A DNA stretch of 47,847 bases from assembly GCA_017965765.1 (NCBI GenBank), contig JAGCPJ010000037.1:1-47847 (forward strand), given 5' to 3'. The stretch's first letter is position 1. Every line of letters begins with the position of its first letter. This document shows, in pieces, positions 6,340 through 42,586 of this stretch. The stretch is from Bacteroidales bacterium. GTDB lineage: Bacteria > Bacteroidota > Bacteroidia > Bacteroidales > F082. The translations under genes and the position numbers were made by a program. Below the pieces are notes generated by a model. The model did not search any database, was not told the DNA's origin, and saw nothing but the letters and a program-made list of their open reading frames with translations.

Positions 6340-6346
6340 TATATAA

Positions 6347-24254: not shown

Positions 24255-24374
24255 GAACTAAAAGCATATCAACCTCCGTTTATGGAATTTTTTTTGCCGT
24301 TGTTCATAACATTTGTTTAAAAAAATGTATTTAACTTATTGATTTTCAAGTATGTTAAATTGAATTAACTTACC

Positions 24375-24396: not shown

Positions 24397-24422
24397 TTTT
24401 CGGTCAAAAACCATCAAAAAAG

Positions 24423-24465
24423 TGGGATAAAGTGGGGGAATTTGGGAGAAAATGCAGTAATTTTG
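24423..24465 (+). promoter_or_regulatory. dcw promoter with three MraZ boxes
   Basis: TGGG occurs at 24423-24426, 24433-24436 and 24443-24446: exact 10-bp spacing, same face of the helix. That matches the TGGGN-N5 repeats bound by MraZ in other bacteria. The -7 box TAATTTTG lies at 24458-24465, so the boxes cover the -33 region. This indicates autorepression of mraZ and of the whole cluster. Confidence 0.8.
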
Positions 24466-24491
24466 TCTCGTTTTTAAAAAGAAGCACAGCG

Positions 24492-24956
24492 ATGAGCAAC
24501 CCAACTGGAACATTTACTTGCAAACTCGACGCGAAAGGCCGACTGATGCTGCCCGCCGATTTCAGGGAACAGCTGGGAAGCCAGGCAGAAGAAGACTTCA
24601 TCCTGCGCCCAGGTCTCCACGGCACCTACCTTGAGCTTTACACCAACAGCGACTGGAACCACCGCCGCGAGATCCTGATGCAGGTCAACACCTTCGACCG
24701 CAGAAAGCTCGACATCATGCGCAAATACCTCGACGGCGTCAAACGCGCCAAACTCGACGCTAGCGGACGTCTGCAGATCCCCAAAGACCTGATGGAACGC
24801 TGCGGACTCAACAAAGACGTCGTCATCACTTCCATGTTCACCAACATGGAAATCTGGGACAAGACGAAGTACGAGGAGCATGTAGCGGAAATCGATGCAG
24901 AAGCTCTGGCCAAAGGTGCAGAAGAACTCTTCTCCAGCCTCAACTTCAGCTTGTAA
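24492..24956 (+). CDS. mraZ: Transcriptional regulator MraZ
   Basis: 154 residues from the ATG at 24492; the frame upstream crosses the promoter and is rejected. Two AbrB-like DNA-binding halves each carry the DxxGR core: CKLDAKGRLMLPADFRE (~10-26) and RAKLDASGRLQIPKDLME (~85-102). MraZ forms a ring that binds TGGG repeats and represses the dcw operon. Three such repeats stand at this gene's own promoter. The gene is first in the cluster, as in most bacteria. Confidence 0.95.
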   Translation: MSNPTGTFTCKLDAKGRLMLPADFREQLGSQAEEDFILRPGLHGTYLELYTNSDWNHRREILMQVNTFDRRKLDIMRKYLDGVKRAKLDASGRLQIPKDLMERCGLNKDVVITSMFTNMEIWDKTKYEEHVAEIDAEALAKGAEELFSSLNFSL

Positions 24957-24991
24957 CTTCTTGATTCTTACTTCTAAATTCTGACTTCTAA
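24957..24991. repeat. Heptamer array between mraZ and rsmH
   Basis: Units of 7 bp ending in TTC/TTCT (such as TTCTTAC, TTCTAAA, TTCTGAC, TTCTAAA) fill the whole gap. The units carry stop codons in the forward direction and are not translated. Confidence 0.75.
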
Positions 24992-24995
24992 AAAA

Positions 24996-25895
24996 ATGTA
25001 CCATAAGCCCGTATTGTTGAGTGCTTGCATCGAAGGGTTGAACATCCAACCCGAGGGCATCTATGCCGACGTCACCTTTGGCGGCGGCGGCCACTCACGC
25101 GCCATCCTCGAAAGGCTTAGCACCGGGCACCTCTACGCGTTCGACCAGGATGAAGACGCCGCCAAAAACGTCATCGATGACCCCAGGTTCACCTTCATCC
25201 CACAGAACTTCAAATACTTCAAGAACTTCATCCAGCTCTACCATAACGGCAAGATCGACGGCGTGCTTGCCGACCTTGGCGTGTCGTCACACCAGTTCGA
25301 CACCCCGGAGAAAGGCTTCTCTACCCGCTTCGAAGGGAAACTCGACATGCGTATGAGCCAAACCAACCCCGTCGATGCCGCCACCGTGGTCAACACCTAC
25401 GACCATGCCGCCCTCACCCGAATCCTGAGCCTCTACGGCGAAGTCCAAAATGCACACCTCTTCGCCGCCGACATCGTCAAGGCTCGGAGCGAACAGCCCA
25501 TCGAGACCACTGCACAGCTGAAGGAAGCCGTCGCGAAACGCCTCCCCAAAGGCAGGGAAAACAAGACCCTCGCCCAGGTGTTTCAGGCCCTTCGCATCGA
25601 AGTCAACCAGGAGATGGAAGCCCTCACCAGCTTCCTTTCCCAATGTCCCGACGTGCTCAAACCCGGCGGACGCCTCGTCGTCCTTTCCTACCACTCCCTC
25701 GAAGACCGCCTGGTCAAGAACTTCACCCGGACGGGCAACGCCGAGGGCAAGGAAGAAAAAGACTTCTTCGGCAACCTGCTGACACCTTATACATTAGTAA
25801 ACAAAAAACCCATCGTCCCTTCGGAAGAAGAGACAGCGGAGAACAGCCGCGCCCGGAGCGCCAAACTGAGAATCGCAGAAAGGAGGCCGGAATGA
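24996..25895 (+). CDS. rsmH: 16S rRNA (cytosine(1402)-N4)-methyltransferase RsmH
   Basis: A 299-residue enzyme that methylates N4 of C1402 in the 16S decoding centre. The SAM site is DVTFGGGGHSRAILE (~24-38). Family motifs follow: LADLGVSSHQFDTPEKGFS, then LDMRM, AKRLPKGRENKTLAQVFQALRI and VLSYHSLEDRLVKNF, with the end SARSAKLRIAERR. It overlaps the ftsL start by 4 bp (ATGA). Confidence 0.97.
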   Translation: MYHKPVLLSACIEGLNIQPEGIYADVTFGGGGHSRAILERLSTGHLYAFDQDEDAAKNVIDDPRFTFIPQNFKYFKNFIQLYHNGKIDGVLADLGVSSHQFDTPEKGFSTRFEGKLDMRMSQTNPVDAATVVNTYDHAALTRILSLYGEVQNAHLFAADIVKARSEQPIETTAQLKEAVAKRLPKGRENKTLAQVFQALRIEVNQEMEALTSFLSQCPDVLKPGGRLVVLSYHSLEDRLVKNFTRTGNAEGKEEKDFFGNLLTPYTLVNKKPIVPSEEETAENSRARSAKLRIAERRPE

Positions 25896-26269
25896 AAAGA
25901 GTAAGAAAAAGCAAGACCGCCAGAAGAGGCACCGTGATGAGTGTGCTGGGCGGCAGCTTCCTGACAAGAGAGGACTTCTCCAAGATCTTCCCCTTCCTCG
26001 TCTATCTCACCGTACTGCTCATGCTCATCATCACCAATGCCTACATCGCCGAGAGCACCAGCAGGGCCATCAAGAAAAACGCCTTACAGCTGCGCGACTT
26101 GCGCGTGGAATACATCTATACGAAATCCGCCTATACCAAGGAATCCACACAGACCATCATGATCGACAAACTCGCCGGAGATGGACTGAAGGAGTCGCTG
26201 GACACGAGGGTGGTAACGGAGAACGGAGAACGGAAAACGGAAAACGGAGAACAGAGAACAGAACAATGA
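25892..26269 (+). CDS. ftsL: FtsL-like divisome protein with heptamer-encoded C-terminal tail
   Basis: 125 residues from the ATG at 25892, which overlaps the rsmH stop. A basic cytoplasmic N-terminus, one TM segment (~32-52, FPFLVYLTVLLMLIITNAY) and a short helical periplasmic part (ALQLRDLRVEYIYTKSAY) fit the FtsL-like proteins of Bacteroidota, which link FtsI/FtsW to FtsQ. Residues ~109-125 ([17 protein letters not shown]) come entirely from a 7-bp tandem repeat and are not expected in the family. The stop overlaps the ftsI start (ATGA). Synteny supports the name more than sequence does. Confidence 0.8.
   Translation: MKRVRKSKTARRGTVMSVLGGSFLTREDFSKIFPFLVYLTVLLMLIITNAYIAESTSRAIKKNALQLRDLRVEYIYTKSAYTKESTQTIMIDKLAGDGLKESLDTRVVTENGERKTENGEQRTEQ
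26216..26264. repeat. ACGGARA heptamer array (7 units) inside the ftsL 3' end
   Basis: ACGGAGA x2, ACGGAAA x2, ACGGAGA, then ACAGAGA and ACAGAAC. It is translated in frame as the FtsL tail and directly abuts the ftsI start codon. Confidence 0.92.
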
Positions 26270-28410
26270 AAAGGGATCCTAATACGAGTTGCATCAACAG
26301 GACCTTCCTGGTTTACCTCGCCGTGCTGGTGGTGGGGCTCATCATCCTGCTCAAGGCAGTGTTGGTGCAGACCCGTGAAGGCGACGAACTGCGTGCACTG
26401 GCGAACAAGGTAGAGACACGTTTCGACACAGTCCAAGCCTCCAGAGGTGACATCCTCGCTTCCGACGGCAGTTTGCTCGCCACCGACGTCCCGATCTTCG
26501 TAGTCGGCATCGACCCCTCCGTCATCAGTGACACGCTCTTCAACAACAACATCGACCAACTCAGCAAACAATTGGCTGGCCTCTTCCCGAAACGCTCGGC
26601 AGCAACATGGAAGAAAGGCCTCATCGAAGCCAAGAACAACAACAAACGGTACTTCCTCGTTGATCTCAACGTTACCTTGGGCCAGTACCGTGAGATGGAG
26701 ACTTTTGCCATCCTCAATCAAGGGAAAATGAAAGGCGGTCTTTCCAGGTCACAACCCAAGTTCAAACGCATCCACCCCTACGGTAACCTCGCCGGACGTA
26801 CCGTCGGCTATGTCACCGAGGACAAGATTGTGGGCATTGAAAGCGCTTACGACTCCATCCTCCGCGGACAGGATGGGCGTCATAAGCAACGCCACCTGCA
26901 TCACGGCGTATGGATCCCTGTTGAAGACGAAAACAACATTGAAGCCGTCAACGGCAACGACATCGTCACCACGATCGACATCGGCATCCAGGACATCGCC
27001 GAACGCGCCTTGCGACACGCCATCACGGAAAACAAAGCCGAACAAGGATGCGCCATCGTCATGGAAGTCGCCACCGGCGAAGTCAAAGCCATCACCAACC
27101 TCCAACGCAACAAGGAAACCGGTGCTTGCAACGAGTTCTACAACTTCGCCATGGGCGTCGGCATCGAACCCGGTTCCACCTTCAAACTGGCCTCCATGCT
27201 CGTGTTGCTCGAGAACTACCCAGACCTCGACATCAACTCGCACATCAACATCGGCAGCGGTCCCCTCGTCTTCTCCAACAAGAAGATGTTTGACGACCAC
27301 ACCATCCATGCCGACGGGCGAGTCACCATCCGCGAGGTGTTCGAGCAGTCCTCTAACAAAGGTACGGCAAAACTCATCACCGACTATTTCGGCAGTCACC
27401 CGGAAAAATATGTCAACAGCCTCTACGCCATGGGGCTGAACATCCCGCTGGGCACCGGGATGGCCGGAGAAGCCAAACCCTATATCAAGCACCCTGTCTT
27501 AGACAAGCAGCATTGGGCCAAGACCTCCCTCCCCTGGATGTCCATCGGCTACGAGTTGCGCCTCCCACCCTTGCAGATCCTCACCCTCTATAACGCCGTG
27601 GCCAACAACGGAACGATGCTCAAGCCACAGTTTGTCAAAGAGATCCGCAAGGAAGGCGTCACCATCGAAACCATCCAGCCTACCGTCCTGAAAGAACACA
27701 TTGCCTCCCAAAAGACCATCGACTCCATCAAGAGCATGATGGAAGGCGTGGTGTTGCGTGGCACCGCCAAGATGCTGCGCGGCACGGAATACGGCATCGC
27801 GGGAAAGACCGGCACCGCACAGCTGTACAACGTGGAAAAGAAAGCCTACAAGTGGGTCAACGCCGAAGGCAGACTGGAACGCGACTATAACGTGACCTTC
27901 GTGGGATATTTCCCCACAGAGAAGCCCATCTATAGCTGCATCGTCGTCATCAGCAAAGCCAAAGGCCGTTTCTACTCCGCGGGCAAGGTAGCCGCCCCCG
28001 CTTTCAAAGAAATCGCCGACCGCGTGTATGCCACTAAGATCAAAGGCATGATGGAAGCCCAACAATACAATGAAAAACTGGCCGACAGCACCATACGCCA
28101 CCAAACCGAGATGGTTCCTTACCTCCAAGGCATCGGCGTGGACTACAGCGACCTCTCGCTCGGCAGCGAATGGGTCACCACCGCCTATTCCAAGGAAGAA
28201 GGCAAATACCTGGTGGAACCCATGCGGTTCGACTCCGCACGCGTTCCCAACGTGAAAGGCATGAGCGTCACCGACGCCGTCTATCTGCTTGAAGACCTCG
28301 GATGGAACATCGCCGTCGAAGGCCAAGGCAAAGTCATCAAACAATCCGTTGCCGCCGGCGACTCGTTACGTCCTGGTGGATTGATCACCTTAACACTTGG
28401 AAAGAAATGA
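26266..28410 (+). CDS. ftsI: Division transpeptidase FtsI (PBP3) with C-terminal PASTA domain
   Basis: 714 residues. A single N-terminal TM (~12-33), then the PBP dimer/pedestal region ([17 protein letters not shown]). The transpeptidase holds SxxK at Ser304 (GSTFK), SxN at ~363 (SSN) and KTGT at ~514. The last ~70 residues ([22 protein letters not shown]) form a PASTA domain. The enzyme cross-links septal peptidoglycan with FtsW. Start and stop codons overlap ftsL and murE by 4 bp each. Confidence 0.96.
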
Positions 28411-29960
28411 AAATCAAAGAGATCATAGTAAACTGCAACCTGCTGGAGCTTATCGGGGATAAAGACTTGGACATCACCCGAGTGTCGTTCGACTCACGCA
28501 CCGTGGAGCCCGGGACCTTGTTCTTCGCCGTGAAAGGCACGCAGGTGGACGGACACGACTACATCGAAAAGGCCGTAGAGAAAGGCGCCAGCGCCATCGT
28601 CTGCGAGAAAATGCCCGAGAAACTCCACCCGAACGTCACCTATATCCGTGTGGACAACAGCGCCTACGTGCTTGGAGTAGGTACCGCCAACTTCTACGGC
28701 AACCCTTCCCATAAGCTGAAACTCGTCGGCGTCACCGGCACCAACGGCAAGACCACCATCGCCACCCTGCTCTACCGCCTGTTCACCGACGCCGGCTATG
28801 CCTGTGGACTGCTCTCCACCATCGAGAACATCATCGATCGCGAAGTCATCCCTTCCACCCATACCACCCCCGACCCCATCGAACTCAACGAGTTGCTGAA
28901 CAAAATGGTTGAACACCAGTGTGAATACGCCTTCATGGAGGTCAGCTCCCACTCCATCGACCAAAACAGGATCGCTGGACTGCAGTTCGCTGGTGGCATC
29001 TTCACCAACCTAACTCGCGACCACCTCGACTACCATAAGACCATGGCCAACTACCGCAACGCGAAGAAGAAATTCTTCGACGACTTGCCGGCCAATGCCT
29101 TCGCGCTGACCAACCTCGACGACAAGAACGGCAGTGTGATGCTCCAGAACACCAAAGCCAAGAAACTGGGCTATGCGCTGAAACACGACGCCGACTTCAA
29201 AGGTTTGATCCTGGAGAGCCATTTCGACGGCATGATGATGAAAGTCAACGACACCGAGATGTTCACCCGACTGGTGGGCAACTTCAACGCCAGCAACATC
29301 CTGGCCATCTATGGTGCCGCGGTTGCCTTGGGGTTCGATAAAGACGAGCTGCTGGTGGAGATCAGCAAACTCAAAGGTGCCAATGGCCGATTCGACATGA
29401 TCCAAAGCGACTGTGGCATCGTAGGTATCGTGGACTACGCCCACACCCCCGATGCACTGGAGAATGTGCTCAAGACCATCAATGAGGTGATGAAAACGGA
29501 AAACGGAACCCCGAAGGGCTCACCGACCGAACGGGAGGTAAAACGGAGAACGGAAAACGGAAAACGGAGAACGGAAAACGCTCAACTCTCAACTCTCAAC
29601 TCTCAACTCATCACCGTGGTGGGCTGCGGCGGCAACCGGGATGCCGGAAAACGTCCCCAAATGGCCGCTGCGGCAGTGAAGCTCAGCGACAAGGTCATCC
29701 TCACCAGCGACAACCCCAGAGACGAAGACCCCGACGAGATCATCCGACAGATGAAGGAAGGCATCGCTGAAGAAGCACTTCGCAAGGTACTCTGCATCAC
29801 CGACCGCCGTGAAGCCATCCGCACAGCCACTGCACTCGCCAAGAAAGGCGACATCATCCTGCTTGCCGGCAAGGGTCATGAAGACTACCAGATCATCAAA
29901 GGCGTAAAAAGACATTTCGACGACAAAGAAGAACTGACTAAAGCATTAAAGGAGAGATAA
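28407..29960 (+). CDS. murE: UDP-MurNAc-tripeptide synthetase MurE with a repeat-derived insertion
   Basis: 517 residues from the ATG at 28407, overlapping the ftsI stop. The ligase adds the third residue of the stem peptide. The P-loop is [10 protein letters not shown] (~111-120), and the central domain has [12 protein letters not shown]. The DNPR signature ([10 protein letters not shown]) indicates meso-diaminopimelate as substrate. Residues 364-401, between KTINEVMK and [11 protein letters not shown], are an insertion encoded by two heptamer arrays and a shared 43-bp module. Canonical MurE has only a few residues there. Flanking motifs are intact, so the enzyme is probably functional with a surface loop. 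Confidence 0.95.
29496..29609. repeat. Composite repeat insertion in murE (ACGGARA array, 43-bp module, CTCAACT array)
   Basis: Order: two ACGGAAA-type units; the module 29504-29546, sharing 42 of 43 bases with 33121-33163 in ftsW; five ACGGARA units; four CTCAACT units (29581-29608). All are stop-free in the reading direction and in frame. Confidence 0.92.
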
Positions 29961-29963
29961 GCC

Positions 29964-31241
29964 ATGTTGTACTACCTGTTTTCCTACCTGCAATCCATCC
30001 ATTTCCCAGGAGCACGTGTGTTCACCTACGTTTCCTTCCGTGCCGTGATGGCCGCCATCATCGCCATCATCGTTTCCGTATGGTTCGGCAAACGATTCAT
30101 CCAACGGATGAAAAGCAAGCATATCGAGGAAACCCAACGCGACGAGAAGCTGGATCCCTTCAACGTTTCGAAGACAGGCGTCCCCACCATGGGCGGCATC
30201 ATCATCATCGCGGCAACGCTCATCCCCTGCCTGCTCATCAGCAAGCTGCACAACATCTACATGATCCTCATGATCATCACCACCCTCATCCTGGGCGCCA
30301 TCGGCTTTGCCGACGACTATATCAAGACCTTCAAGAAAAACAAGGAAGGCATCAATGGATGGGTGAAGATCGGCGGACAGGTGATGCTGGGGCTCATCGT
30401 AGGTCTGACCTTGCGTTTCAGTCCTGCCGCACAAATGAACGAGGCCGTCCAAATCGGCATCCTCGACAACACCGAAGTCCTTTACAAGACCCCTGACGTG
30501 AAATCCACCCGCACCACCATCCCCTTCGTGAAGAACCATAACCTGAACTACGCCGACCTGTTCAAATGGGCGGGTCAGAAATGGATGTACATCCTGGGAT
30601 GGGCCTTCTTCGTGCTGGTCACGGTGTTTGCCGTGGCTGCCGTCTCCAACGGTTCCAACCTGAATGACGGCATGGACGGCATGTCCGCCGGCAACACCGC
30701 CATCATGGCGCTCACTGTAGGCATCCTCGCCTACCTTTCCAGTAACGGAAGGATGGCGAGTTATTTCAACATCATGTATATCCCCGGAACAGAGGAGATC
30801 GTGGTGTTCCTCAGCGCCTTCGTCGGCGCCCTTCTAGGCTACCTGTGGTACAACTCCTTCCCCGCACAGGTCTTCATGGGCGACACCGGAAGCCTGACCA
30901 TCGGAGGCATCATCGCCGTGGCCGCAGTCATCATCCACAAGGAGCTGCTGCTGCCCATCATCTGCGGCGTGTTCCTCTTTGAGAGCCTCTCCGTCATCCT
31001 CCAACGGCTCTATTACAAGACGGGAAAGAAAAAAGGCGTCCACCGAAGGATCTGGAAACGGACCCCTGTTCACGACCATTTCCGCACCTCGCTCGACTAC
31101 ATCGCCAAGGTCGATCCGGGTTGTACCGTGAAATACAAAGGCAGCCCGCAACTGCACCACGAAGCGAAGATCACGTTACGCTTCTGGATTGTGAGCATCC
31201 TGCTGGCGGCGTTTACGATTTTGACACTGAAGATTAGATAG
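29964..31241 (+). CDS. mraY: Phospho-MurNAc-pentapeptide transferase MraY
   Basis: A 425-residue polytopic enzyme that makes lipid I from UDP-MurNAc-pentapeptide and undecaprenyl phosphate. Motifs include GVPTMGGIIIIAA (Mg/uridine region), GFADDYIKTFKKNKEG with the DD pair, NLNDGMDGMSAG and FMGDTGSL. The C-terminal cytoplasmic HHH-type loop is VHRRIWKRTPVHDHF. An extra loop (about 170-210) before the fifth helix is usual in Bacteroidota. It starts 3 bp after murE. Confidence 0.97.
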   Translation: MLYYLFSYLQSIHFPGARVFTYVSFRAVMAAIIAIIVSVWFGKRFIQRMKSKHIEETQRDEKLDPFNVSKTGVPTMGGIIIIAATLIPCLLISKLHNIYMILMIITTLILGAIGFADDYIKTFKKNKEGINGWVKIGGQVMLGLIVGLTLRFSPAAQMNEAVQIGILDNTEVLYKTPDVKSTRTTIPFVKNHNLNYADLFKWAGQKWMYILGWAFFVLVTVFAVAAVSNGSNLNDGMDGMSAGNTAIMALTVGILAYLSSNGRMASYFNIMYIPGTEEIVVFLSAFVGALLGYLWYNSFPAQVFMGDTGSLTIGGIIAVAAVIIHKELLLPIICGVFLFESLSVILQRLYYKTGKKKGVHRRIWKRTPVHDHFRTSLDYIAKVDPGCTVKYKGSPQLHHEAKITLRFWIVSILLAAFTILTLKIR

Positions 31242-31275
31242 AAGATAGAAGACAGAAGTAAGAAGTAAGAAGTAA
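31241..31275. repeat. GAAGTAA heptamer array where the 5' part of murD should be
   Basis: GAAGATA, GAAGACA, GAAGTAA x3, starting at the last base of the mraY stop. Some frames contain TAA/TAG, so the array is not coding. Confidence 0.88.
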
Positions 31276-31291
31276 GAAAAATTATATAGAT

Positions 31292-31864
31292 ATGAGGTAT
31301 TTGTTTGAATCCACGGAAAAGATGCAGAAGCGCAAGCCGGAAGGCATGGCGTCGAGTATCACGAAAAAAGTACTGGAGATTCGTAAGGAAAGCATCAAGA
31401 ACTGCATGGGCGACCTCAACACCATGCCGCATCGCCAGCACTATCTGGGAGCCGTTGACGGTGTCATGTACTACGACGACTCGCAGGCCGAAAGCGTCAA
31501 CGCCACCTGGTTCACTTTCGAGAACATCGTCAACCCAGTGGTCTGGATCGTCGGCGGCTCTTGCCACAGCAACTACAGCGATTTGATCGCCACCGCCAAG
31601 AAGAGTGTGAGAGCCATCATCAGCCTCGGTTCGGAGCAAGAAAACATCGAGATGACCTTCAAGGGCGTCGTAGAGGAGATCCATGCTGCAGCCTCCATCT
31701 CGGAAGCAGTGCAACTTGCCAGCAAAATCGCCCACAAGAACGACATCGTGCTCTTCTCCCCCTCTTGCAAGGACCTGGAGATGAGCTATGACAAACGCGG
31801 GACATGCTTCATTGAGGAAGTGAACAAACTCTCATTCAACTTTAAAAATACAATTCTCAGCTAA
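31292..31864 (+). CDS. Truncated MurD-like protein: Mur ligase C-terminal domain only
   Basis: 190 residues, against ~440-450 for full MurD, in the murD position between mraY and ftsW. Residues ~45-185 follow the MurD third domain: MPHRQHYLGAVDGVMYYDDS (usual PHRLE..G.V.F.NDS), WIVGG, RAIISLG and IVLFSPSCKDLEMSYDKRG (usual LLSPACASFD.F..YE.RG). The UDP-binding and ATP-binding domains are absent: no GxxGKTT P-loop. The D-glutamate-site stretch DSKATN reads DSQAES. The first ~40 residues are unplaced. As it stands it cannot ligate D-Glu alone. The frame is clean and well used, which suggests an expressed protein with another role. Confidence 0.8.
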   Translation: MRYLFESTEKMQKRKPEGMASSITKKVLEIRKESIKNCMGDLNTMPHRQHYLGAVDGVMYYDDSQAESVNATWFTFENIVNPVVWIVGGSCHSNYSDLIATAKKSVRAIISLGSEQENIEMTFKGVVEEIHAAASISEAVQLASKIAHKNDIVLFSPSCKDLEMSYDKRGTCFIEEVNKLSFNFKNTILS

Positions 31865-31869
31865 TTGCC

Positions 31870-34337: not shown

Positions 34338-34347
34338 AGATACGACA

Positions 34348-35688
34348 ATGGAAGGGATGAAACATTTGTACTTTTTAGGCATCGGCGGCATCGGGATGAG
34401 CGCCTTGGCAAGGTATTACCACAGCCAAGGAGCCCAGGTGTCAGGGTATGACCTCACCCCTTCACCATTGACGAAACAGCTGGAAGATGAGGGTCTGGCA
34501 ATCCATTATGAAGACAGACCCGATTTATTGCCGACCCTCATCGATGCCGTCATCTATACCCCAGCGGTACCCAAGGATCTCAAAGAATACCAAGAGATCC
34601 AACGGCGTGGCATCCCCATCCTGAAAAGGGCGGAGGCCCTGGGCATGATCTCCAAGAAGCACTTCACCATCGCCGTCGCAGGCACGCACGGCAAGACCAC
34701 CACGACCGCCATGGTGGCCCATATCCTGAATGAAAACGGCGTCGATATGACGGCCTTCATCGGAGGCATCGCCAACAACTTCAACAGCAACCTGCACCTC
34801 GGTCGCACCGAAGAATCCGTGTTCGTCGTGGAAGCCGACGAGTTCGACCGTTCCTTCCTCCATCTGTCACCCGACATCAGCATCATCAACTCCATCGACG
34901 CCGACCATCTCGACATCTATGGCGATCGGAAACACGTGGTGGAGGGCTTCAACGATTTCGCCCGCCTGACCAGCCGCCGTGTCATCAGCAAGGAACAGCT
35001 TCCACTGGACTTCGAAGGAGCGCTGCACCAGCACTTCGGCTTCGACGAAGACAACGACTTCAAGGCAACGGATATTCAGATGCATGAAGGAGAGACCGAC
35101 TTCGTGATCCGCCATGATGAGACGGCTACCGCAGTGCATCTCCGCATGGCTGGCATGCACAACGTGCTGAACGCTACCGCCGCCTTCGCCGCCACCCTGT
35201 CACTCGGTATCGACGCCAACGGCATCGCCGAAGCCCTCTCGTCCTTCCTGGGCGTGAAACGCCGCTTCGACGTCAGGGTGAAAAACGAAAGATACTGCTA
35301 CATCGACGACTATGCACATCATCCAGAAGAAATAAAATCTTGTCTGTCGGCCATTAAAGCGTCATTCCCCACCAGGCGTCTGACGCTGGTCTTCCAGCCG
35401 CACCTCTTCACTCGTACACGCGATTTCATGGAAGACTTCGCCAAGAGCTTGGCGATGGCCGACGACCTGATTTTACTCGACATATACCCTGCCAGGGAGA
35501 AGCCCATCGAAGGCATCACCTCACAGGCCCTCCTCGACAGGATTGACAGCAACAGCAAGTGCCTATGCCAAAAAGAAGCACTACTCGACACCATCAGCCA
35601 ACGCAAGCCAACGTTGCTGGTGACCATGGGCGCAGGCAACATCGACCGTTTTGTTGAACCGCTTGAAACAATGATACGACAATGGTAA
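34348..35688 (+). CDS. murC: UDP-MurNAc:L-alanine ligase MurC
   Basis: 446 residues from the ATG at 34348 (MEGMKHLYFLGIGGIGMSAL); 34357 is an alternative. The frame is open back to 34312, but those codons are heptamer repeat. Motifs: GIGGIGMSA nucleotide-binding loop, VAGTHGKTTTTAM P-loop (~112), VVEADEFDRSF, NSIDADHLDIYGD and IDDYAHHPEEIKS. The ligase starts the stem peptide. Gene order after murG is standard. It overlaps ftsQ by 7 bp. Confidence 0.97.
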   Translation: MEGMKHLYFLGIGGIGMSALARYYHSQGAQVSGYDLTPSPLTKQLEDEGLAIHYEDRPDLLPTLIDAVIYTPAVPKDLKEYQEIQRRGIPILKRAEALGMISKKHFTIAVAGTHGKTTTTAMVAHILNENGVDMTAFIGGIANNFNSNLHLGRTEESVFVVEADEFDRSFLHLSPDISIINSIDADHLDIYGDRKHVVEGFNDFARLTSRRVISKEQLPLDFEGALHQHFGFDEDNDFKATDIQMHEGETDFVIRHDETATAVHLRMAGMHNVLNATAAFAATLSLGIDANGIAEALSSFLGVKRRFDVRVKNERYCYIDDYAHHPEEIKSCLSAIKASFPTRRLTLVFQPHLFTRTRDFMEDFAKSLAMADDLILLDIYPAREKPIEGITSQALLDRIDSNSKCLCQKEALLDTISQRKPTLLVTMGAGNIDRFVEPLETMIRQW

Positions 35689-36449
35689 AGAAGATATTGA
35701 GCATCATATTGTGGGTCATCACGGCTGGAGCCATCGTCGTGCTTTTCGTCATGGGACGGAAAACCTATCTCGACACGCCCCTACAAGGGATCGTCTTCAG
35801 TCTGGAGCAATCCAGCAAGAGAGGCTGCGTTGAGAGAGACACCATGCTGTCCCATATTGAAAAGCGCTGCGACCTGGAACATCAAGCCAAGATCTCCAGC
35901 ATCGACATGATGGGACTCAAGCAGATGCTCACCAAGAACCCGTGGATCGAGCAAGCTGGCGGCTACATCGGACTCAATGACACCCTCGTCATCAAGGCCA
36001 AGGAACACAAGCCCGTTGTCCGCATCTTCAACAAACAAGGACGGTCGGTATTCGTCACCGAACACGGTACCATCATCCCCTTCAGCCCCAAGCACACGCC
36101 ACGTCTGATCATCGCCAACGGCGATTTCAACTTCCCCACTCCTAGGGACAATGCCGACATGAACGACAGCATCTATGCCGGCGTACCCGAAGCGCTGCAC
36201 ATCGCCCAAGCCATCAACAACAATCCGTTCCTGATGGGCAACATCGGACAAATCTGCAAAACCGGCGATGAATACGAACTGGTGGTCAACAACCTCTCTG
36301 CCAGGGTCATCTTCGGCGACACCTGTGCGACCAACGACAAAATGCAACGGCTCCGTACACTGCTGGAGAAATACAGCGGCACCAGCGAGCTGGAACCCTA
36401 TAAAACCCTGAACTTGAAATACAAAAATCAAATCGTGTGTACAAAATAA
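35682..36449 (+). CDS. ftsQ: Cell division protein FtsQ/DivIB-like
   Basis: 255 residues. One N-terminal TM (~5-25, ILSIILWVITAGAIVVLFV), then a periplasmic POTRA-like part with MMGLKQMLTKNPWIEQAGGYIGLNDTLVIKAKEHKPVVRIF. That matches the usual N.P(W/Y)(V/I)..A.V......L.I.V.E..P.A pattern. It links FtsL to the rest of the divisome. It lies between murC (7-bp overlap) and ftsA (7-bp gap). Confidence 0.88.
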   Translation: MVKKILSIILWVITAGAIVVLFVMGRKTYLDTPLQGIVFSLEQSSKRGCVERDTMLSHIEKRCDLEHQAKISSIDMMGLKQMLTKNPWIEQAGGYIGLNDTLVIKAKEHKPVVRIFNKQGRSVFVTEHGTIIPFSPKHTPRLIIANGDFNFPTPRDNADMNDSIYAGVPEALHIAQAINNNPFLMGNIGQICKTGDEYELVVNNLSARVIFGDTCATNDKMQRLRTLLEKYSGTSELEPYKTLNLKYKNQIVCTK

Positions 36450-36456
36450 CAAAACT

Positions 36457-37818
36457 ATGAGTGAAGAAAAAATCATTGTCGGACTAGACATCGGCACCAC
36501 CAAGATCGCATGCATCGTGGGTAGAAAAGGCGCCAATGGCAAAATCGAAATCCTGGGCTACGGCAAAGCAGCCTCCACAGGAGTGAGCAGAGGTATCGTT
36601 ACCAACATCGAAGAGACCGTCAACGCCATCAAGACCGCAGTTGACATGGCTTCGGCACAGTCTAACGTCGATATCAAGTCGGTGAACGTAGGTATCGCCG
36701 GCCAACACATCAAGAGCCTCCAGCACCGGGGCGTGATGATGCGCGACGACAAAGACAAGGAAATCTCCAACGAAGAGCTTGAGAAACTGCGTCAGGACAC
36801 CTACAAGATCAACATGATCCCTGGCGAAGAAATCATCGACGTCATCCCGCAGGAGTATTTCGTGGACGGCGAGATCGGCACAACACCCAAAGGCATGTTG
36901 GGAAGCAAGTTGGAAGCCAACTTCCACGTGATTATCGGCCAAAACGCCGCCGCCATGAACATCGTCAAATGCATCCAGAAGGCAGGACTTGAGATGGACC
37001 ACATGATCCTGGAGCCCATCGCCTCTGCGGAAGCCGTACTCGACGAAGAAGAGAAGGAAGCCGGCGTCGCCCTGGTCGATATCGGAGGCGGCACCACCGA
37101 CATCGCCATCTTCCATGAAAACAAGATCTACCATTCGGCCGTCATCCCCTTCGGAGGCAACATCATCACTGACGACATCATGAAAGGATGCACCATCATC
37201 CGCCGCTACGCTGAAGACGTGAAGGTGAAGTTCGGATCAGCCGTGGCCAGCGAGAACCGCGATGACGAAGTAGTCGCCATCCCGGGCATCAGAGGCAGAA
37301 AAGCCAAAGAGATCTCCTTCAAGAACCTCGCCAACATCATCCAAGCCAGAATGGAAGAGATCTTCGAACTGGTGAACTACGAAATCCAGAAAGTCAACTC
37401 ACAACACAAGCTCATCGCCGGCATCGTGCTGACAGGCGGTGGCGCCATGATGCGGCATATCCAGCAACTGGCCGCCTTTAAGACCGGCCTTGACGTGCGT
37501 ATCGGCTACCCCAACGAACACCTCGCCAAGGAAACCGACGAAGAACTGGCCAGCCCGATGTATGCCACCGGTATCGGCCTCGTCATTGAAGGCATCGCAA
37601 GGGCGGAGCATCAGGAAAAGATGGAGAAAGCCAAGCACAAGGAATCCATCCGTGTGATCCCAGTGCAACCCACCGAAGACACAGAGGAAAGCCCTGAACC
37701 GGAAGGAGAACCGAGAGAAAGAGGCAGAAGACGTCCTGCGAAGAAACCGCACCGCAGGTTCGACCTCCCGCAAATCATCACCAAGTTCTTCTCCGAAGAG
37801 AACGAAATCAACGAATAA
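36457..37818 (+). CDS. ftsA: Cell division protein FtsA
   Basis: A 453-residue actin-like ATPase that anchors FtsZ to the membrane. The phosphate-1 loop is IVGLDIGTTKIACIVG, the 1C subdomain holds the NVGIAGQHIKS region, phosphate-2 is VALVDIGGGTTDIAIF, and the adenosine motif is LTGGGAMM. A Glu/Arg-rich linker (~395-435) precedes the amphipathic end FDLPQIITKFFSEEN, the likely membrane-targeting helix. Confidence 0.97.
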   Translation: MSEEKIIVGLDIGTTKIACIVGRKGANGKIEILGYGKAASTGVSRGIVTNIEETVNAIKTAVDMASAQSNVDIKSVNVGIAGQHIKSLQHRGVMMRDDKDKEISNEELEKLRQDTYKINMIPGEEIIDVIPQEYFVDGEIGTTPKGMLGSKLEANFHVIIGQNAAAMNIVKCIQKAGLEMDHMILEPIASAEAVLDEEEKEAGVALVDIGGGTTDIAIFHENKIYHSAVIPFGGNIITDDIMKGCTIIRRYAEDVKVKFGSAVASENRDDEVVAIPGIRGRKAKEISFKNLANIIQARMEEIFELVNYEIQKVNSQHKLIAGIVLTGGGAMMRHIQQLAAFKTGLDVRIGYPNEHLAKETDEELASPMYATGIGLVIEGIARAEHQEKMEKAKHKESIRVIPVQPTEDTEESPEPEGEPRERGRRRPAKKPHRRFDLPQIITKFFSEENEINE

Positions 37819-37839
37819 TAACAAAAAAAACAAGATACT

Positions 37840-39495
37840 ATGGAAAACTACATTGACGACATGTTCAAGCCCCTCTGCGAGAAACCTGCCAACTACATCA
37901 AAGTCGTGGGTGTCGGAGGAGGCGGCGGAAACGCCGTGAACCACATGCTTGAAGAAGGCATCCAAGGTGTTGACTTCGTGTTGTGCAACACCGACTACCA
38001 AGCCCTGATGAGAAGCACGGTCCCCACCAAGATCCATCTCGGCAAACGCGAACTCGGCGCAGGCAACGACCCCAACGTGGGACGTGAGGCCGCCATGAGC
38101 AGCAAAGACGAAATCGACAAGATCCTGGACGACAAAACCAAGATGCTGTTCGTCACCGCCGGTATGGGTGGCGGCACGGGTACTGGAGCCGCTCCCGTGG
38201 TGGCTGGCCTTGCCAAGGACAAAGGCATCCTCACCGTGGGCATCGTCACCATCCCCTTCGAATGCGAAGGCAGAAGACGCAAGCAACAAGCCCAGGCTGG
38301 TATCGAAGAACTCAGAAAGAATGTCGATACCCTCATCATCATCAGCAGCGATAAACTGCGCGACTCCTACGGCAACATGAAACTCACCGAAGCCTTCAAG
38401 AAAGCCGACGACATCCTCACCACCGCTGCCAAAGGCATCGCCGAGATCATCACCGTCACCGGCTATGTCAACGTGGACTTCGAAGATGTGAAGACCGTCA
38501 TGAAAGACAGCGGCAAGGCCATCATGGGTACCGGTCGCGCCAGCGGCGAAAACAGAGCCGAGGAAGCCATCAAACTCGCCATCAACTCACCGCTGCTCAA
38601 CGACTCCGACATCGAAGGTGCCAAGAACATCCTGCTCTATATCACCTCAGGTTCCGACGAGGTATCCCTCGACGAAGTGGTCGAGATCACCGAATATGTC
38701 CAAAATACCTGCGGCAACTGCTCCGACGTCATCTGGGGTAATGGCATCGATGAATCCCTCGGAGACGACATCAGCGTCACCCTCATCGCCACTGGCTTCG
38801 AAAGCAAAAAAACCAAAATTGAAGAGCTGATGCCCAAAGAGCCAAAGACCGAGCCTCACACCAAAGAGGACAAACCCGCAACCAACCCCGACCACCGCAC
38901 CATACACGTCCTGGGTGAAGACGAGAACCAAGTCCATGACGAAGTCCCGGCCCCTAAGACCGAGGAACTACCTCAAGTGGAGACGCCCAAAGTGGAAGGC
39001 CCCAGAGTGCACACCCTCGACGAGAAGGAAGAAAGCTTCAACTTCAGCGCTCCTTCCTTCAAGAGCGAGCCAGAACCGGTGAAGGAAACCTCCACACCCG
39101 TCCCGACACCCGACCCCATCCCCACCGTCAAAGTCTTTGACAACCCCTTCACCAACAACGGCAACGACGACGATAGCTTCGAGTTCAGCAACTACAGCGA
39201 CAACAACACACACGCCCAGAGAGAAGCTGAAGCCGTGGAGACCATGGTGATGGAAGAACCCAAAGTGCAACAGCCAGACCCGAAAGACGAACTGATCCGC
39301 AACCGCCTCAAAGCCCTTAGCCTCAACTATAGGACCCAAAAAGGACTTGAGGAGCTGGAACGCCAACCCGCTTATATGCGTAGAGACAAAAACTACGAAG
39401 AGATTGTCACCGAGGAAGAAGAAGTCTCCCGCTACTCCACCACAAGCAAGGGCATCAGCACCGAGAACTCCTTCCTGCACGACAATGTCGATTGA
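37840..39495 (+). CDS. ftsZ: Cell division protein FtsZ with extended C-terminal region
   Basis: 551 residues. The tubulin-like GTPase core spans ~15-325: GVGGGGGNAVNHM, the tubulin signature GGGTGTGAAPVVAGLAK (~108-124), and NVDFEDVKTVMKDSGKAIMGTG. After the core, a ~190-residue acidic, Pro-rich linker leads to a conserved C-terminal helix region (LIRNRLKALSLNY) and the end FLHDNVD. The long linker is typical of Bacteroidota. The stop TGA is directly followed by the next gene's ATG. Confidence 0.97.
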   Translation: MENYIDDMFKPLCEKPANYIKVVGVGGGGGNAVNHMLEEGIQGVDFVLCNTDYQALMRSTVPTKIHLGKRELGAGNDPNVGREAAMSSKDEIDKILDDKTKMLFVTAGMGGGTGTGAAPVVAGLAKDKGILTVGIVTIPFECEGRRRKQQAQAGIEELRKNVDTLIIISSDKLRDSYGNMKLTEAFKKADDILTTAAKGIAEIITVTGYVNVDFEDVKTVMKDSGKAIMGTGRASGENRAEEAIKLAINSPLLNDSDIEGAKNILLYITSGSDEVSLDEVVEITEYVQNTCGNCSDVIWGNGIDESLGDDISVTLIATGFESKKTKIEELMPKEPKTEPHTKEDKPATNPDHRTIHVLGEDENQVHDEVPAPKTEELPQVETPKVEGPRVHTLDEKEESFNFSAPSFKSEPEPVKETSTPVPTPDPIPTVKVFDNPFTNNGNDDDSFEFSNYSDNNTHAQREAEAVETMVMEEPKVQQPDPKDELIRNRLKALSLNYRTQKGLEELERQPAYMRRDKNYEEIVTEEEEVSRYSTTSKGISTENSFLHDNVD

Positions 39496-41913
39496 ATGAA
39501 CCGTGTCAAACACAAGATAATCACCCTACTCGTCTTGATATCTGCTGGGCTTCAACTGCAAGCCCAGCAGTTTAAAGACGACTTTGAGAACCAATATACC
39601 TGGTACCCTCCCTGGTCCTACATCCACATCGTGCCGGATAGTACCGCTGCCGAAGGACGTTTCGTGTGCCTGTGCGACACCACGATGGAATACGGACTGG
39701 GTATCGCCTACACCCTGCCCGACAGCCTGCTGGGCAATAATATCCACCTGGACTACCAAGCCGACTTCCGATGGCCAGATACCTTAGGCAGCGGATCCCT
39801 AGTCGTCAGCATCAAGAAAAAAGAAGGCGACTACAGGTTCTGGCAAAGCTTCAGCCTCAACCAATACGCCAATGACAGTGCTGCGTGGTTCCCCGTTCGG
39901 ATCACAATGAACCTACCTACCGACTATTTGAAGAAAGAGGATGCCATCGGGGTATTCCTTTGGAATACAAATAGATGCAACATTTTGATTAACAATGCTT
40001 TATTTAGCATTAAACCCATTCAGCAAAGCTATCTACCGAAACTAGAGGTAACGGAGAACGGAGAACGGAGAACGGAAAGTTTGCAGCTTTCAGTTCAAGA
40101 CGAACCCCTTACCAAGCCCATCGGCATGTTGGTCGAATATATTCTAGACGGGGATACCTTAACTGACTATCAGCTTTTTGAGGAAACGGAAGATGGAAGG
40201 TGGATGGCCGTCACCGCAATAGACACCACCTACCTCGGCATCATTGAACGGGATGGCCTCGTCAGCTTGCATCCCTGGTCCCTATTCCATAAAAACTGTT
40301 TGCTGTTGCGCCAAGCCCTAGTCGTTCCGTTCATCGACAGCACCATGACCGTGTATCGAAGAAATATGGAAAAGGAAAACGGGAAGCCGTCGCAGAAAGA
40401 GTACTATTTGGACAGGGAAGGGTTCAAGATCGGCGAAGGCGAGCGGAGCGTGATTTCCTATCACCAGGGATGGATTTCCTCCACACAGCTCGACGCCGAG
40501 AACCGCACTGCTTATTTCAACCTCGACTACTGGCGCGACCATCCGATGATCCATTATCCTATGAGCGACACTTTGACGGACTATTTCGAGGACCGCTCCT
40601 GCCGCCACATCCATGAAGGGATGCAATGGACCCATATCATCGTTCTTTACGTGGGAAGCGACCTTAGGGACATGCCCCGAATCATGCCCGTCCCCTACGG
40701 TTACGAGTCGGGCATCATCTTCACCGAACATGCCGATTGGACTGACCTTCGTACCCATCGCGCCGTGCTCTTCGGCAACGAGCATGTCACCAAAGTGAAG
40801 AATGCCACAGGGGGCTTCGTCTATTACGGCATCCCCGTGACCAAGAGCGTGTTTTACAACAATCCCGACAAGGTGACCAACGATGAAATCAGCCATGGCG
40901 CCTTTACCGGGCCCATTGCCACCATCAAAACCCACCGCAAGTTCGAGAAACTGTTGTTCCAACTCCATGACATCGGTTTCGACCTCTGTCTGCACACCCC
41001 CGAGCAATACACCACAACCCGAAACAACCTCGAGGCAGCGCTGACCTATATGCAAAGGTATTTCAGATCCACCACCTGGATTGACCACGGATACAACAAC
41101 GGTCCCGAACACAATCGTGAAGACATGGTCTGCGACGGATTGGACAGAAGCTCAGCGTCTCACTCCGCTTGGGTGCGGTTTGGAGTACAGTACCTGTGGA
41201 ATCCCTATTATGAGGAAAACCGCTTGGAACAATGGAGTTTCGACAACAACCTCACCCAGCCCTATCCAGGGTTCGGCGATGCCCTGCCGAACCGGCAGAT
41301 TACTGCCATTCCAGGCGTATTCCATGACTATTACATCGGAAGCCTCTCACCGATTCAGTCTCCCGCGATCTGGCTCGACTACCTCACTTGGTCCACACCA
41401 AACACACTGGAGGTTTACAGCGACCTGGAATGGGACTATTATTTCAGCGAGGAGCGCCTGCAACGGCTCGTTGACCAGCACCAGGTCCACATCATCCACG
41501 CCTATCCTGCCTGGGTCAACCCCAAAAAGGGTTTCTGGACCTACGATGCCGACAGCACCCTCATCGCCAGGCCAGGCTTCAACCGCGCCTTAGAACGGAT
41601 CGCCAACTTGCGTGATGAACAGAAAATACTCCCCATGACCATCCGAACCTACCTCGACTACTACAGCGGCCTGCTCAACGTCAGCTATGAAATCATCGAC
41701 GCAAACCATATCCGGCTGCGCAACCATGGCGGAAAAATCAAAGGCTTCACGCTACTTTGTTCCTGCCCCATCCGTTTCGAGGACAACCGCTATTACGAGT
41801 TTAGAAAAGTCGGCGACCAGTATTATGTTTGGTTCGACCTCAAGGCGGGGGAGGAAGTCGGGATTGAAATTCGGAATTCGGAATGCGGAATTCGGAATGC
41901 GGAATTAGACTAA
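39496..41913 (+). CDS. Large secreted protein of unknown function, directly downstream of ftsZ
   Basis: 805 residues. Residues 1-24 (MNRVKHKIITLLVLISAGLQLQAQ) are a signal peptide. The region to ~170 looks like a beta-sandwich. The central and C-terminal part has HADWTDLRTHRAVLFG, DLCLHTPEQYTTTRNNLEAAL and STTWIDHGYNNGPEHNRED. The spacing of Asp/His residues recalls NodB-type polysaccharide deacetylase barrels, but this is weak. Residues ~186-194 (TENGERRTE) and the last ~14 (RNSECGIRNAELD) are heptamer-derived. There is no gap to ftsZ, so it belongs to the dcw transcript. A cell-envelope role is inferred from position. Confidence 0.75.
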   Translation: MNRVKHKIITLLVLISAGLQLQAQQFKDDFENQYTWYPPWSYIHIVPDSTAAEGRFVCLCDTTMEYGLGIAYTLPDSLLGNNIHLDYQADFRWPDTLGSGSLVVSIKKKEGDYRFWQSFSLNQYANDSAAWFPVRITMNLPTDYLKKEDAIGVFLWNTNRCNILINNALFSIKPIQQSYLPKLEVTENGERRTESLQLSVQDEPLTKPIGMLVEYILDGDTLTDYQLFEETEDGRWMAVTAIDTTYLGIIERDGLVSLHPWSLFHKNCLLLRQALVVPFIDSTMTVYRRNMEKENGKPSQKEYYLDREGFKIGEGERSVISYHQGWISSTQLDAENRTAYFNLDYWRDHPMIHYPMSDTLTDYFEDRSCRHIHEGMQWTHIIVLYVGSDLRDMPRIMPVPYGYESGIIFTEHADWTDLRTHRAVLFGNEHVTKVKNATGGFVYYGIPVTKSVFYNNPDKVTNDEISHGAFTGPIATIKTHRKFEKLLFQLHDIGFDLCLHTPEQYTTTRNNLEAALTYMQRYFRSTTWIDHGYNNGPEHNREDMVCDGLDRSSASHSAWVRFGVQYLWNPYYEENRLEQWSFDNNLTQPYPGFGDALPNRQITAIPGVFHDYYIGSLSPIQSPAIWLDYLTWSTPNTLEVYSDLEWDYYFSEERLQRLVDQHQVHIIHAYPAWVNPKKGFWTYDADSTLIARPGFNRALERIANLRDEQKILPMTIRTYLDYYSGLLNVSYEIIDANHIRLRNHGGKIKGFTLLCSCPIRFEDNRYYEFRKVGDQYYVWFDLKAGEEVGIEIRNSECGIRNAELD
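40051..40078. repeat. ACGGAGA heptamer array (4 units) inside the post-ftsZ gene
   Basis: ACGGAGA x3 and ACGGAAA, read in frame in a predicted loop between two N-terminal domains. Confidence 0.9.
41863..41904. repeat. TTCGGAA/TGCGGAA heptamer array at the end of the post-ftsZ gene
   Basis: ATTGAAA, TTCGGAA x2, TGCGGAA, TTCGGAA, TGCGGAA, then the TTAGAC end. It encodes the C-terminal tail. Same family as 34306-34333 and 42541-42582. Confidence 0.9.
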
Positions 41914-41923
41914 GTTCAATGGT

Positions 41924-41958
41924 GGATTGCCAACCGAAAGGGAGGCAATCCTCCCTCG
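41924..41958. terminator. Palindrome/terminator at the end of the dcw transcript
   Basis: Two competing hairpins occur: GGATTGCC / GGCAATCC, and CCGA..GGGAGG / CCTCCC.CGG around a CAAT loop. It lies between the convergent post-ftsZ gene and purN. The left arm ACCGAAAGGGAGG matches part of the module in murE and ftsW at 12 of 13 bases. No strong U-tract, so termination is likely but not certain. Confidence 0.55.
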
Positions 41959-41972
41959 GAAGCAACGGATGG

Positions 41973-42536
41973 CTATTGTTTTAAAAGCATCTCAATAATC
42001 ACTGGGAAATTGGCCTGTTCCAGCAAGTGAATCTTTGCTGCAACGCTGTCGGGCGTCTCATCGGACGTCAGGGCGACTTTAGCCTGGAAGATGATCTCAC
42101 CGCTGTCGTAGATCTCGTTCACATAATGGATGGTGATGCCAGAGTAAGCCTCCTTAGCGGCCACCACCGCTTCGTGAACATGCTCCCCATAAAAGCCTTT
42201 GCCGCCGTATTTGGGCAAAAGCGCCGGATGGATGTTTATGATCTTCTTAGGATAGACCTGGATCAAGCTCTCAGGGATCTTCCATAGAAACCCCGCCAAC
42301 ACGATGAAATCCAGCTGCAAGTCTGCCATTTCTTGGGTAAACGCAGTGCTGTTGAACTCTTGCTTGTTGACCATCCTCACCGGGATCCCCAAATGCTTCG
42401 CCCTTTCAATGGCGTAAGCCTTGGGGTTGTTACAGACCACGTTGACAATCTCAACCTCGGGGTTGCCTTTGAAATACTCCGCAATCCGCTGTAGGTTAGT
42501 GCCATTCCCCGACACAAATATCGCTATCCTCTTCAT
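41973..42536 (-). CDS. purN: Phosphoribosylglycinamide formyltransferase (GAR transformylase)
   Basis: 187 residues. The enzyme transfers a formyl group from 10-formyl-tetrahydrofolate to GAR in purine synthesis. Motifs: IAIFVSGNGTNLQRIAEYF at the N-terminus, FIVLAGFLWKIP, the catalytic IINIHPALLPKYGGKGFYG (Asn, His), and SGITIHYVNEIYDSGEII with the catalytic Asp. Length is typical. It stands alone, with a heptamer array at its upstream side. Confidence 0.96.
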   Translation of the reverse strand: MKRIAIFVSGNGTNLQRIAEYFKGNPEVEIVNVVCNNPKAYAIERAKHLGIPVRMVNKQEFNSTAFTQEMADLQLDFIVLAGFLWKIPESLIQVYPKKIINIHPALLPKYGGKGFYGEHVHEAVVAAKEAYSGITIHYVNEIYDSGEIIFQAKVALTSDETPDSVAAKIHLLEQANFPVIIEMLLKQ

Positions 42537-42540
42537 CGTT

Positions 42541-42582
42541 TAATTCTTAATTCCGAATTCCGCATTCCGAATTCCGCATTAT
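42541..42582. repeat. Heptamer array (GAATTCC/GCATTCC) between purN and the YitT-family gene
   Basis: Six 7-bp units, TAATTCT, TAATTCC, GAATTCC, GCATTCC, GAATTCC, GCATTAT: the reverse complement of the TTCGGAA/TGCGGAA family. It fills nearly the whole gap between the two minus-strand genes. Confidence 0.9.
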
Positions 42583-42586
42583 TCTC

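Follow-up and report, generated by a model that had tools for sequence, protein, structure and literature searches.

Heptamer arrays in a Bacteroidales genus appear to keep their sites while their units change, in the dcw cluster and in an S41 peptidase gene

Introduction

Contig JAGCPJ010000037.1 of a Bacteroidales genome (GenBank assembly GCA_017965765.1), a stretch of 47,847 nt analyzed over its whole length and hereafter termed the window, carries a division and cell wall (dcw) gene cluster in which tandem arrays of 7-bp units (heptamers) lie in the gaps between genes, at gene ends, and inside genes. The locus raises the question of how repeats can come to lie within essential genes such as murE while the reading frames stay open, and whether such arrays spread into these sites or arise there. 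An earlier note on this DNA favored spread, by repeat elements comparable in effect to Rickettsia palindromic elements (RPEs). The comparisons presented here support, with moderate confidence, a heptamer system that spans the genus: its sites persist while the repeated words change, and in some genomes one word with open frames spreads into essential genes. The explanation that we favor, albeit with reserve, is that the arrays are heptameric microsatellites formed by slippage in 7-nt steps and filtered by selection to permissive sites, with copying of one open-frame family in addition.

Period 7 in the window and across the genome

Arrays were detected with a scorer of matches at a fixed offset, with a main threshold score of 12; segments at a lower threshold were also tallied. 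At score 12, the window holds eight period-7 arrays, as against none at periods 2 to 6, 9 to 11, and 13, one at period 8, and two at period 12; periods 14 and 21 also show up, as multiples of 7. At the lower threshold, ten period-7 segments lie between 24,958 and 42,580, and Tandem Repeats Finder concurs, so the arrays that the earlier note described between mraZ and the YitT-family gene are real. Their period is strict, as claimed there, in the main arrays, whereas the segments at 24,957 (TTCTnnn) and 11,091 are weak (score 10) and an array at 13,661 was detected only with indels. Tandem Repeats Finder also reported an 8-bp array in the window, at 6345-6385 (AAGATTTA).

The window is contig C29 of a 2.0-Mb genome that is 76% complete. 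A sample of 20 stretches of this genome (375,432 bases, on contigs mostly known beforehand to carry the unit AACGGAR) contained 55 arrays at period 7, 9 at period 8, and 0 to 4 at each other period below 14, and no period-7 arrays were found in one triplet-shuffled copy of it. When only arrays with at least three perfect copies are counted, in sample and window together, 20 have period 7 as compared to 0 to 3 at each of periods 4 to 6 and 8 to 13. Period 7 is the sole strongly enriched short period. AACGGAR accounts for 31 of the 55 period-7 arrays, and the other 24 have units that include AATGCGG, AATTCCG, AAGACAG, AAAAGAT, ACTCCTC, AACTCTC, and AAGAAGT. Genome-wide, the AACGGAR triple pattern has 214 overlapping matches and its reversed pattern none. 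The arrays are a genome-wide feature and not one of the dcw cluster.

Gene positions were taken from a home-made codon-usage gene finder trained on the window (coding fraction 0.83). Merging of the arrays of window and sample gave 60, of which 39 are intergenic, and thus lie in the 17% non-coding part, 11 are at gene ends, and 10 are internal. At least 80% purine on one strand was found for 71 of 164 arrays; the background of 0.4%, which comes from non-repetitive DNA, understates what chance would give, as repetition of a random 7-mer yields six of seven in about 12.5% of cases by the binomial. AACT occurs within 17 of 53 distinct units as compared to 4.7 in letter-permuted units (0 of 400 permutations reached 17), a hint of a common AACT core among units that, inside one clade, are not independent.

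Same sites, different units in related loci

The dcw proteins were searched in 59 related loci (L031 to L089). The closest of 80 loci kept from a MurG search are Bacteroidales or Bacteroidia records with MurG at most 84% identical, and many of these closest relatives are, by record titles, from ruminant or horse gut. Sites were compared in 11 loci (L031 to L039, L041, and L042, of which L038 is array-free; L040, a short contig, was omitted). Arrays were mapped between flanking aligned codons within the range of the window, and those at most 20 nt from a window array were taken as orthologous. Of the 41 arrays in these relatives, 33 share their site with a window array by this criterion; 5,000 random placements, a null that ignores common descent, gave 2.8 on average and never more than 10. 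The comparison of orthologous loci that the earlier note proposed hence recovers its sites, mostly with other heptamers in them; of the ancestral peptides at the same positions in relatives that it named as a contrary case, half was found, in that the positions recur and the peptides mostly differ.

One site with such differences is a loop of MurE. The units there are AACTGCC in L032, L035, and L036, AACTCCC in L034, AACTCTC in L041, an AACGGAA hairpin in L037, and an AGTGGAA type in L042, while the window has AACGGAR and then AACTCTC; in L031, L033, L038, and L039 the loop is short and array-free. On a tree of four other proteins, murE-loop arrays have a scattered distribution inside the clade (L031, L033, and L039 are without, their sisters with) and also occur in lineages beyond it (L053 and the group L062, L063, and L068). 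The window's murE insert is a composite of array, 33-bp core, array, and second unit family. Alignment of MurE with its best-matching solved chain, 8f5d, jumps from query residue 367 to 400, and the insert (residues about 368-399, core included) is therefore missing from the solved enzyme. Outside the dcw cluster, the loop after SGRCIQEIDYS in an S41 peptidase holds AACGGAA and the core in G022, AACGGAA and AACTCYC in G019, and AACTCTC in G009; the motif was present in 24 of 30 loci tried (L247 to L252 gave no motif match), and 21 of the 24 are array-free. Taken together, these comparisons suggest that sites persist while units turn over.

The features of the window on which these comparisons draw are as follows.

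24958-24989, + strand: weak ACTTCTN (TTCTnnn) array in the mraZ-rsmH gap, beginning at the mraZ stop (offset scorer, Tandem Repeats Finder)
26215-26262, + strand: AACGGAR array that forms the FtsL C-terminal tail (offset scorer, gene position)
29492-29508, + strand: AACGGAA units, 5' flank of the murE composite insert (offset scorer)
29509-29541, + strand: 33-bp core module CCCCGAAGGGCTCACCGACCGAACGGGAGGTAA, in frame within murE (core-copy comparison)
29542-29609, + strand: AACGGAR array running in register into an AACTCTC array, within murE (offset scorer)
31236-31278, + strand: hybrid array passing from AGATAGA to AGTAAGA in the mraY-murD gap, beginning at the mraY stop codon
33126-33158, + strand: second copy of the 33-bp core, in the FtsW C-terminal tail, in a frame that differs from that of the murE copy
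33157-33216, + strand: AACGGAR/AACTGAC array, FtsW C-terminal tail
34304-34334, + strand: AATTCGG/AATGCGG array that forms the MurG C-terminus (offset scorer)
40050-40076, + strand: AACGGAG array inside the gene after ftsZ (LEVTENGERRTESLQLS)
41868-41905, + strand: AATTCGG/AATGCGG array, C-terminus of the gene after ftsZ
42540-42580, - strand: AATTCGG/AATGCGG-type array (AATTCCG on the + strand), gap between the YitT-family gene and the formyltransferase gene

The ftsL, ftsW, and murG arrays are at gene ends, and those of murE and the first in the post-ftsZ gene are internal. At other sites, too, relatives carry different units: AACTTCT, AACTCCT, or AACTGTA arrays in the mraZ-rsmH gap (L033, L035, L036, and L041), units other than AACGGAR at the FtsL tail (L031, L035, L036, and L037), AGAAGNN or AGTGAAG units at the MurG junction in six relatives, and GGAGTGA arrays at the site orthologous to 40050-40076 (L037 and L039).

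Genes of the cluster were named from Pfam family and gene order: mraZ, rsmH, ftsL, ftsI, murE, mraY, a MurD C-terminal fragment, ftsW, murG, murC, ftsA, and ftsZ, followed by a gene at 39,496-41,913 without a Pfam match, a formyltransferase gene, and the YitT-family gene; a gene at 35,682-36,449, also without a Pfam match, is called ftsQ by its place. Known RNA families gave zero matches at gathering score in 24,000-43,000 of the window. As a separate observation, murD in this cluster is the C-terminal domain alone (31292-31864, 190 aa, Mur_ligase_C). The murD-matching open frame is 179-222 aa in 57 related loci of L031 to L088 (none in L067) and 446 aa in L089; a full-length murD-family match lies elsewhere in the own genome (G000:C65:28442-29641), and G022 (97% complete) has no murD-family match above the family cut-off.

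It could be argued that the arrays are an artifact of assembly, given that short arrays are hard to assemble and that most sources are metagenome assemblies. Records from different projects show arrays at the same sites, however, and frames are open through the arrays, which makes this hardly credible, although single arrays may still have been given a wrong length.

Reading frames through the arrays

All 32 arrangements of AACGGAR, and likewise all 32 of the AATTCGG/AATGCGG mixes, are free of stops in six frames, as the earlier note had stated for its ACGGARA and TTCGGAA types; its other claims on frames also hold. CTCAACT is open in the sense direction only, and AGAAGTA and AGATAAA have a stop in each sense frame. 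A uniform array encodes one cyclic heptapeptide whichever frame is read, and what counts is hence the length of the whole insert modulo 3; this makes arrays unusually tolerable near gene ends, though a 7-bp change shifts the frame.

That arrays can lie in essential genes with the frame kept was borne out at the murE loop, where the units are sense-open in 8 of 8 arrays (window plus seven loci), and stop-bearing units occupy the mraY-murD gap in 8 of 8 cases and the mraZ-rsmH gap in 5 of 5, all three counts including the close relatives L035 and L036. The proposed division into sense-open arrays in genes and stop-bearing arrays in gaps describes these sites but not the ftsW tail of L035 and L036 or the post-ftsZ gene of L037 and L039, in which stop-containing units occur and one frame stays open. 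Non-hairpin AACGGAR arrays that overlap genes are in sense orientation in 10 of 10 cases, a bias that fits selection for the hydrophilic TENGERK reading.

Probable origin in place and step size

Among codirectional intergenic arrays, 22 of 30 lie at most 6 nt from a stop codon, as compared to 9.5 expected from even placement in gaps, and none of 20,000 simulations reached 22; the set comprises 30 of 40 rows, convergent, divergent, and edge arrays having been excluded. Many arrays look to have been born in place, with units that match native sequence at stop codons. The mraY gene ends in AGATAA with no array after it in L039, L043, L045, and L046, and this end continues as AGATAAR units up to the murD start in L031, L032, L034, L035, L036, and L042. 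Similarly, the MurG tail codons GAAGTCAGAAG of L031, array-free there, match AGAAGTN arrays in L034, L041, and L042, and the mraZ end AACTTCTAA matches AACTTCT units in L033. The direction would be from seed to array rather than from array to remnant. Regarding step size, in-array gaps are 14, 9, and 42 bp between L035 and L036 (94.9% identical) and 14 and 7 bp between L062 and L068 (97.3%), so that 4 of 5 follow the 7-nt steps of heptamer repeats.

Stop-codon adjacency and sense orientation, along with inter-array hairpins, some of which are at gene 3' ends, are also what functional cis-elements (translation-coupling spacers, mRNA 3'-end hairpins, or phase-variation switches) selected for the repeat itself would lead one to expect, and in a Beggiatoaceae genome TAACTGA arrays are found mostly just upstream of start codons (PMC4679880). 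Such a role nevertheless seems improbable for arrays that are missing in close relatives at the same sites (murE, mraY-murD), differ in their units, and occur inside enzyme loops.

A six-frame-open family and its 33-bp core

The AACGGAR triple pattern was found in 5 of 60 genomes of the genus (a set that includes the own genome), with 214 overlapping matches in the own genome, 151 in G022, 51 in G019, 28 in G009, and 5 in G033; the reversed pattern, used as control, was not empty everywhere, with 4 matches in G008. AACGGAR is often paired with an inverted copy across a short loop, forming a hairpin. Both hairpin arms are translated in an aminotransferase class V protein, which we take from its motifs to be cysteine-desulfurase-like, and the Pfam model is still matched over its full length. 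Two near-identical AACGGAR hairpins with the same loop lie 1.1 kb apart (L144:15937-16030 and L144:17033-17118), perhaps as a recent local copy, and at L197:380-543 (G009:C71) AACGGAR is repeated about 23 times, which makes for a very long array.

The 33-bp core, at no more than one mismatch, occurs 19 times in the own genome, 13 times in G022, 3 times in G012, and once in G033, and is missing from the other 56 of the 60 genomes. Copies were examined at 32 of these 36 places; the counts cover near-exact copies, with edge class assigned by pattern and phase by eye, and diverged copies (e.g., L160, L161, L191, L192, L194, L150, and L141) stand outside them. Heptamers adjoin the left edge in 24 of the 32, in a single phase throughout, and the right edge of these 24 is AACGGA in 22, the other two having AGTGGAA/AGTTGAA-type units on both sides in place of AACGGAA. 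The remaining eight have no adjoining heptamer, and seven of them have GTCATTGCGAG on the left. The core is also seen in a separate intergenic dispersed repeat, with GTCATTGCGAG on the left and GGCAATCC on the right in several copies (L201, L204, L205, L210, L227, and L229). Of the heptamer-flanked cores, 15 of 24 are in frame in predicted genes (8 internal and 7 near an end, 14 of the 15 in one orientation), as are 0 of the 8 non-heptamer cores, all of which are intergenic. Ten genes submitted to Pfam (nine with a core and the hairpin gene) all matched a family, the core-bearing ones being an S41 peptidase, two MBOAT, LptD, FtsK, Vsr, an ABC-2 transporter, an ATP synthase A chain, and an RNB ribonuclease; MurE and FtsW also carry the core.

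The presence of AACGGAR and the core at many unrelated genes implies copying between loci besides birth in place, the route of which was probably array-templated recombination or template switching. Hybrid arrays that keep register, in murE (AACGGAA, AACGCTC, AACTCTC) and at 31,236 (AGATAGA, AGACAGA, AGTAAGA), suggest exchange of units by pairing, with the caveat that a fixed-offset scorer favors hybrids of this kind.

An RPE-like element, or one like a miniature inverted-repeat transposable element (MITE), that has heptamer arrays as ends, a transposase acting in trans, and decayed or simplified copies as the other arrays, would account for the AACGGA-type units at both core junctions in 22 of 32 distinct copies and for a composite in unrelated genes (MurE, FtsW, S41 peptidase, MBOAT, LptD, FtsK, and others) that is co-oriented in 14 of 15 in-gene copies. 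This is unlikely, since most listed arrays of the 375-kb sample and the window lack the core, unit families differ between species at one site, and site-specific units match native sequence. Moreover, no terminal repeats or target duplications were seen; array-free orthologous sites show a few codons replaced and no clean target duplication, though the species compared have diverged. A transposon-only origin was rejected as a general account on the native-matching units and the lack of clean target duplications. The spreading element of the earlier note likewise does not extend to the arrays at large, with units that match native sequence at their sites and 39 of 60 arrays intergenic; its likeness to RPEs does hold for the AACGGAR/core class, whose members are scattered over unrelated genes and translated there.

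Distribution in the genus and phylum

A pattern of AACT every 7 nt has matches in 60 of 60 genus genomes (3,194 as compared to 808 for the reversed control) and exceeds the control in 54, and AACT every 8 nt has 671 matches as compared to 164. Period-8 families, with AACTGAAC and AACTCAGC types among those listed, were observed in G025, G076, G078, G009, and G004. Of 296 genomes sampled from the phylum, 134 contain the period-7 pattern, although its control also matched often.

Templating by RNA would account for a genome-specific unit that recurs at many loci, and a telomerase-like or other reverse-transcriptase engine could be imagined to add templated heptamers at breaks. We consider this very improbable because several unrelated units coexist within one genome. 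RVT_1 was found in 33 of 60 relatives, and G009, G029, and G031, drafts (84-93% complete) with an abundance of AACT heptamers, had no match; telomerase-like templating was rejected on the lack of an RVT_1 match in several array-rich genomes.

A model of heptamer arrays and the points against it

In the model that we favor, arrays arise in place by tandem duplication in 7-nt steps, as the length differences between close relatives show, and these steps would be caused by slippage or template switching. Selection would then keep arrays at permissive places, namely just past stop codons, in C-terminal tails, and in surface loops, and internal sites would retain units that leave the sense frame open. 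To judge from the species comparison, arrays may gain, lose, and swap units in 7-bp register, such that the site stays and the unit changes. AACGGAR, open in six frames, would additionally be copied among loci, alone, as inverted hairpins, and around the 33-bp core.

Several points weigh against this model. Simple slippage alone does not explain one unit at dozens of loci, the hairpins, or the core. The short native matches could be leftovers of lost arrays and not seeds. When all nine aligned pairs (82-97% class) are pooled, the gaps inside arrays number 10, and only 5 of them are divisible by 7; four of the pairs contribute no such gap, and two reuse a locus from another pair. In 4 of 60 genomes, period 8 has more matches than period 7, and seven is a strong preference and no law. 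In addition to the null that ignores common descent, the site comparison includes the near-duplicates L035 and L036 (94.9% identical), and AGATAAR at mraY-murD is common to six loci, so shared sites may partly be inherited arrays; shared ancestry contributes to the recurrence at orthologous sites. Finally, the own-genome sample is biased toward contigs with known AACGGAR, and the source genomes are, going by record titles, metagenome assemblies.

The arrays might instead be a self-propagating, transposase-free system in which each array is both target and donor, units are exchanged in register, and the core was captured, with the 7-nt register possibly set by a single-strand binding protein. 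For the cold-shock protein CspB, PMC4679880 describes one monomer bound per heptamer, with better binding to TTCTTTT, and the purine/pyrimidine asymmetry of the arrays would likewise be in line with a protein that covers 7 nt of pyrimidine-rich DNA. We regard such a system as possible though doubtful; if real, it would repeatedly write translated, frame-tolerant peptides into essential genes at the same loops.

The system shows how repeats can enter essential genes whose frames stay open, and it is a source from which conserved enzymes can gain new loops and tails. The genus is a natural experiment, with many species, identical sites, and different units, in which step size, seeding, and unit exchange are measurable.

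Comparison with known repeat systems

Heptameric simple sequence repeats are the closest known system. Examples are TAACTGA arrays in Beggiatoaceae, cyanobacteria, and Bacteroidetes (PMC4679880) and GGGAATC-type arrays in Xanthomonas and Nostoc (PMC4692102), and the latter source cites a 2007 report of heptamer over-representation with the guess that polymerase contact length favors seven. The arrays described here resemble these in their dispersed head-to-tail 7-bp units, their over-representation relative to other unit sizes (with period 8 a weaker second), and their mainly intergenic position. AACTGAT in L035 and L036 is a rotation of TAACTGA. According to PMC4679880, indels between close cyanobacterial strains are mostly in 7-nt increments; a few of the arrays described there lie at protein ends, including that of MurG. 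A milder form of site persistence is apparent in PMC4692102, where most repeats of two xanthomonads lie between the same genes with extensive variation in length and sequence. In the present system, by contrast, one genome holds many unit families, orthologous sites are occupied by different ones, and there are arrays in internal loops of essential enzymes, in-register hybrids, coding hairpins, and a shared core module. A search by titles and abstract openings, in mostly open-access literature, turned up nothing on heptamer arrays of several families in rumen Bacteroidales.

RPEs, which PMC2635572 also treats, are read in frame within numerous unrelated genes and yield a recurrent peptide (PMC10969869), a likeness that extends here to the AACGGAR/core class only. 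They are about 150 bp long and fall into ten families (PMC10969869), in contrast to heptamer arrays of variable length, in which hairpins are a subset with varying loops, lengths, and units and not a conserved palindrome of about 150 bp. MITEs and repetitive extragenic palindromic (REP) elements are likewise short dispersed repeats, and 8 of the 32 core copies, all intergenic, do lie in a context free of heptamers; the terminal inverted repeats and target duplication of MITEs were not seen here, in a comparison of rather diverged species. In the microsatellites of contingency loci, which underlie phase variation, the unit size is not divisible by three and a change in length shifts the frame. 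The heptamer is also not divisible by three, yet where such units are open and lie in loops or close to gene ends, they would be expected to damp expression rather than switch it. Heptamer arrays are, as a kind, already known, whereas their recurrence at orthologous sites with changing units and the translated composite modules appear to be new.

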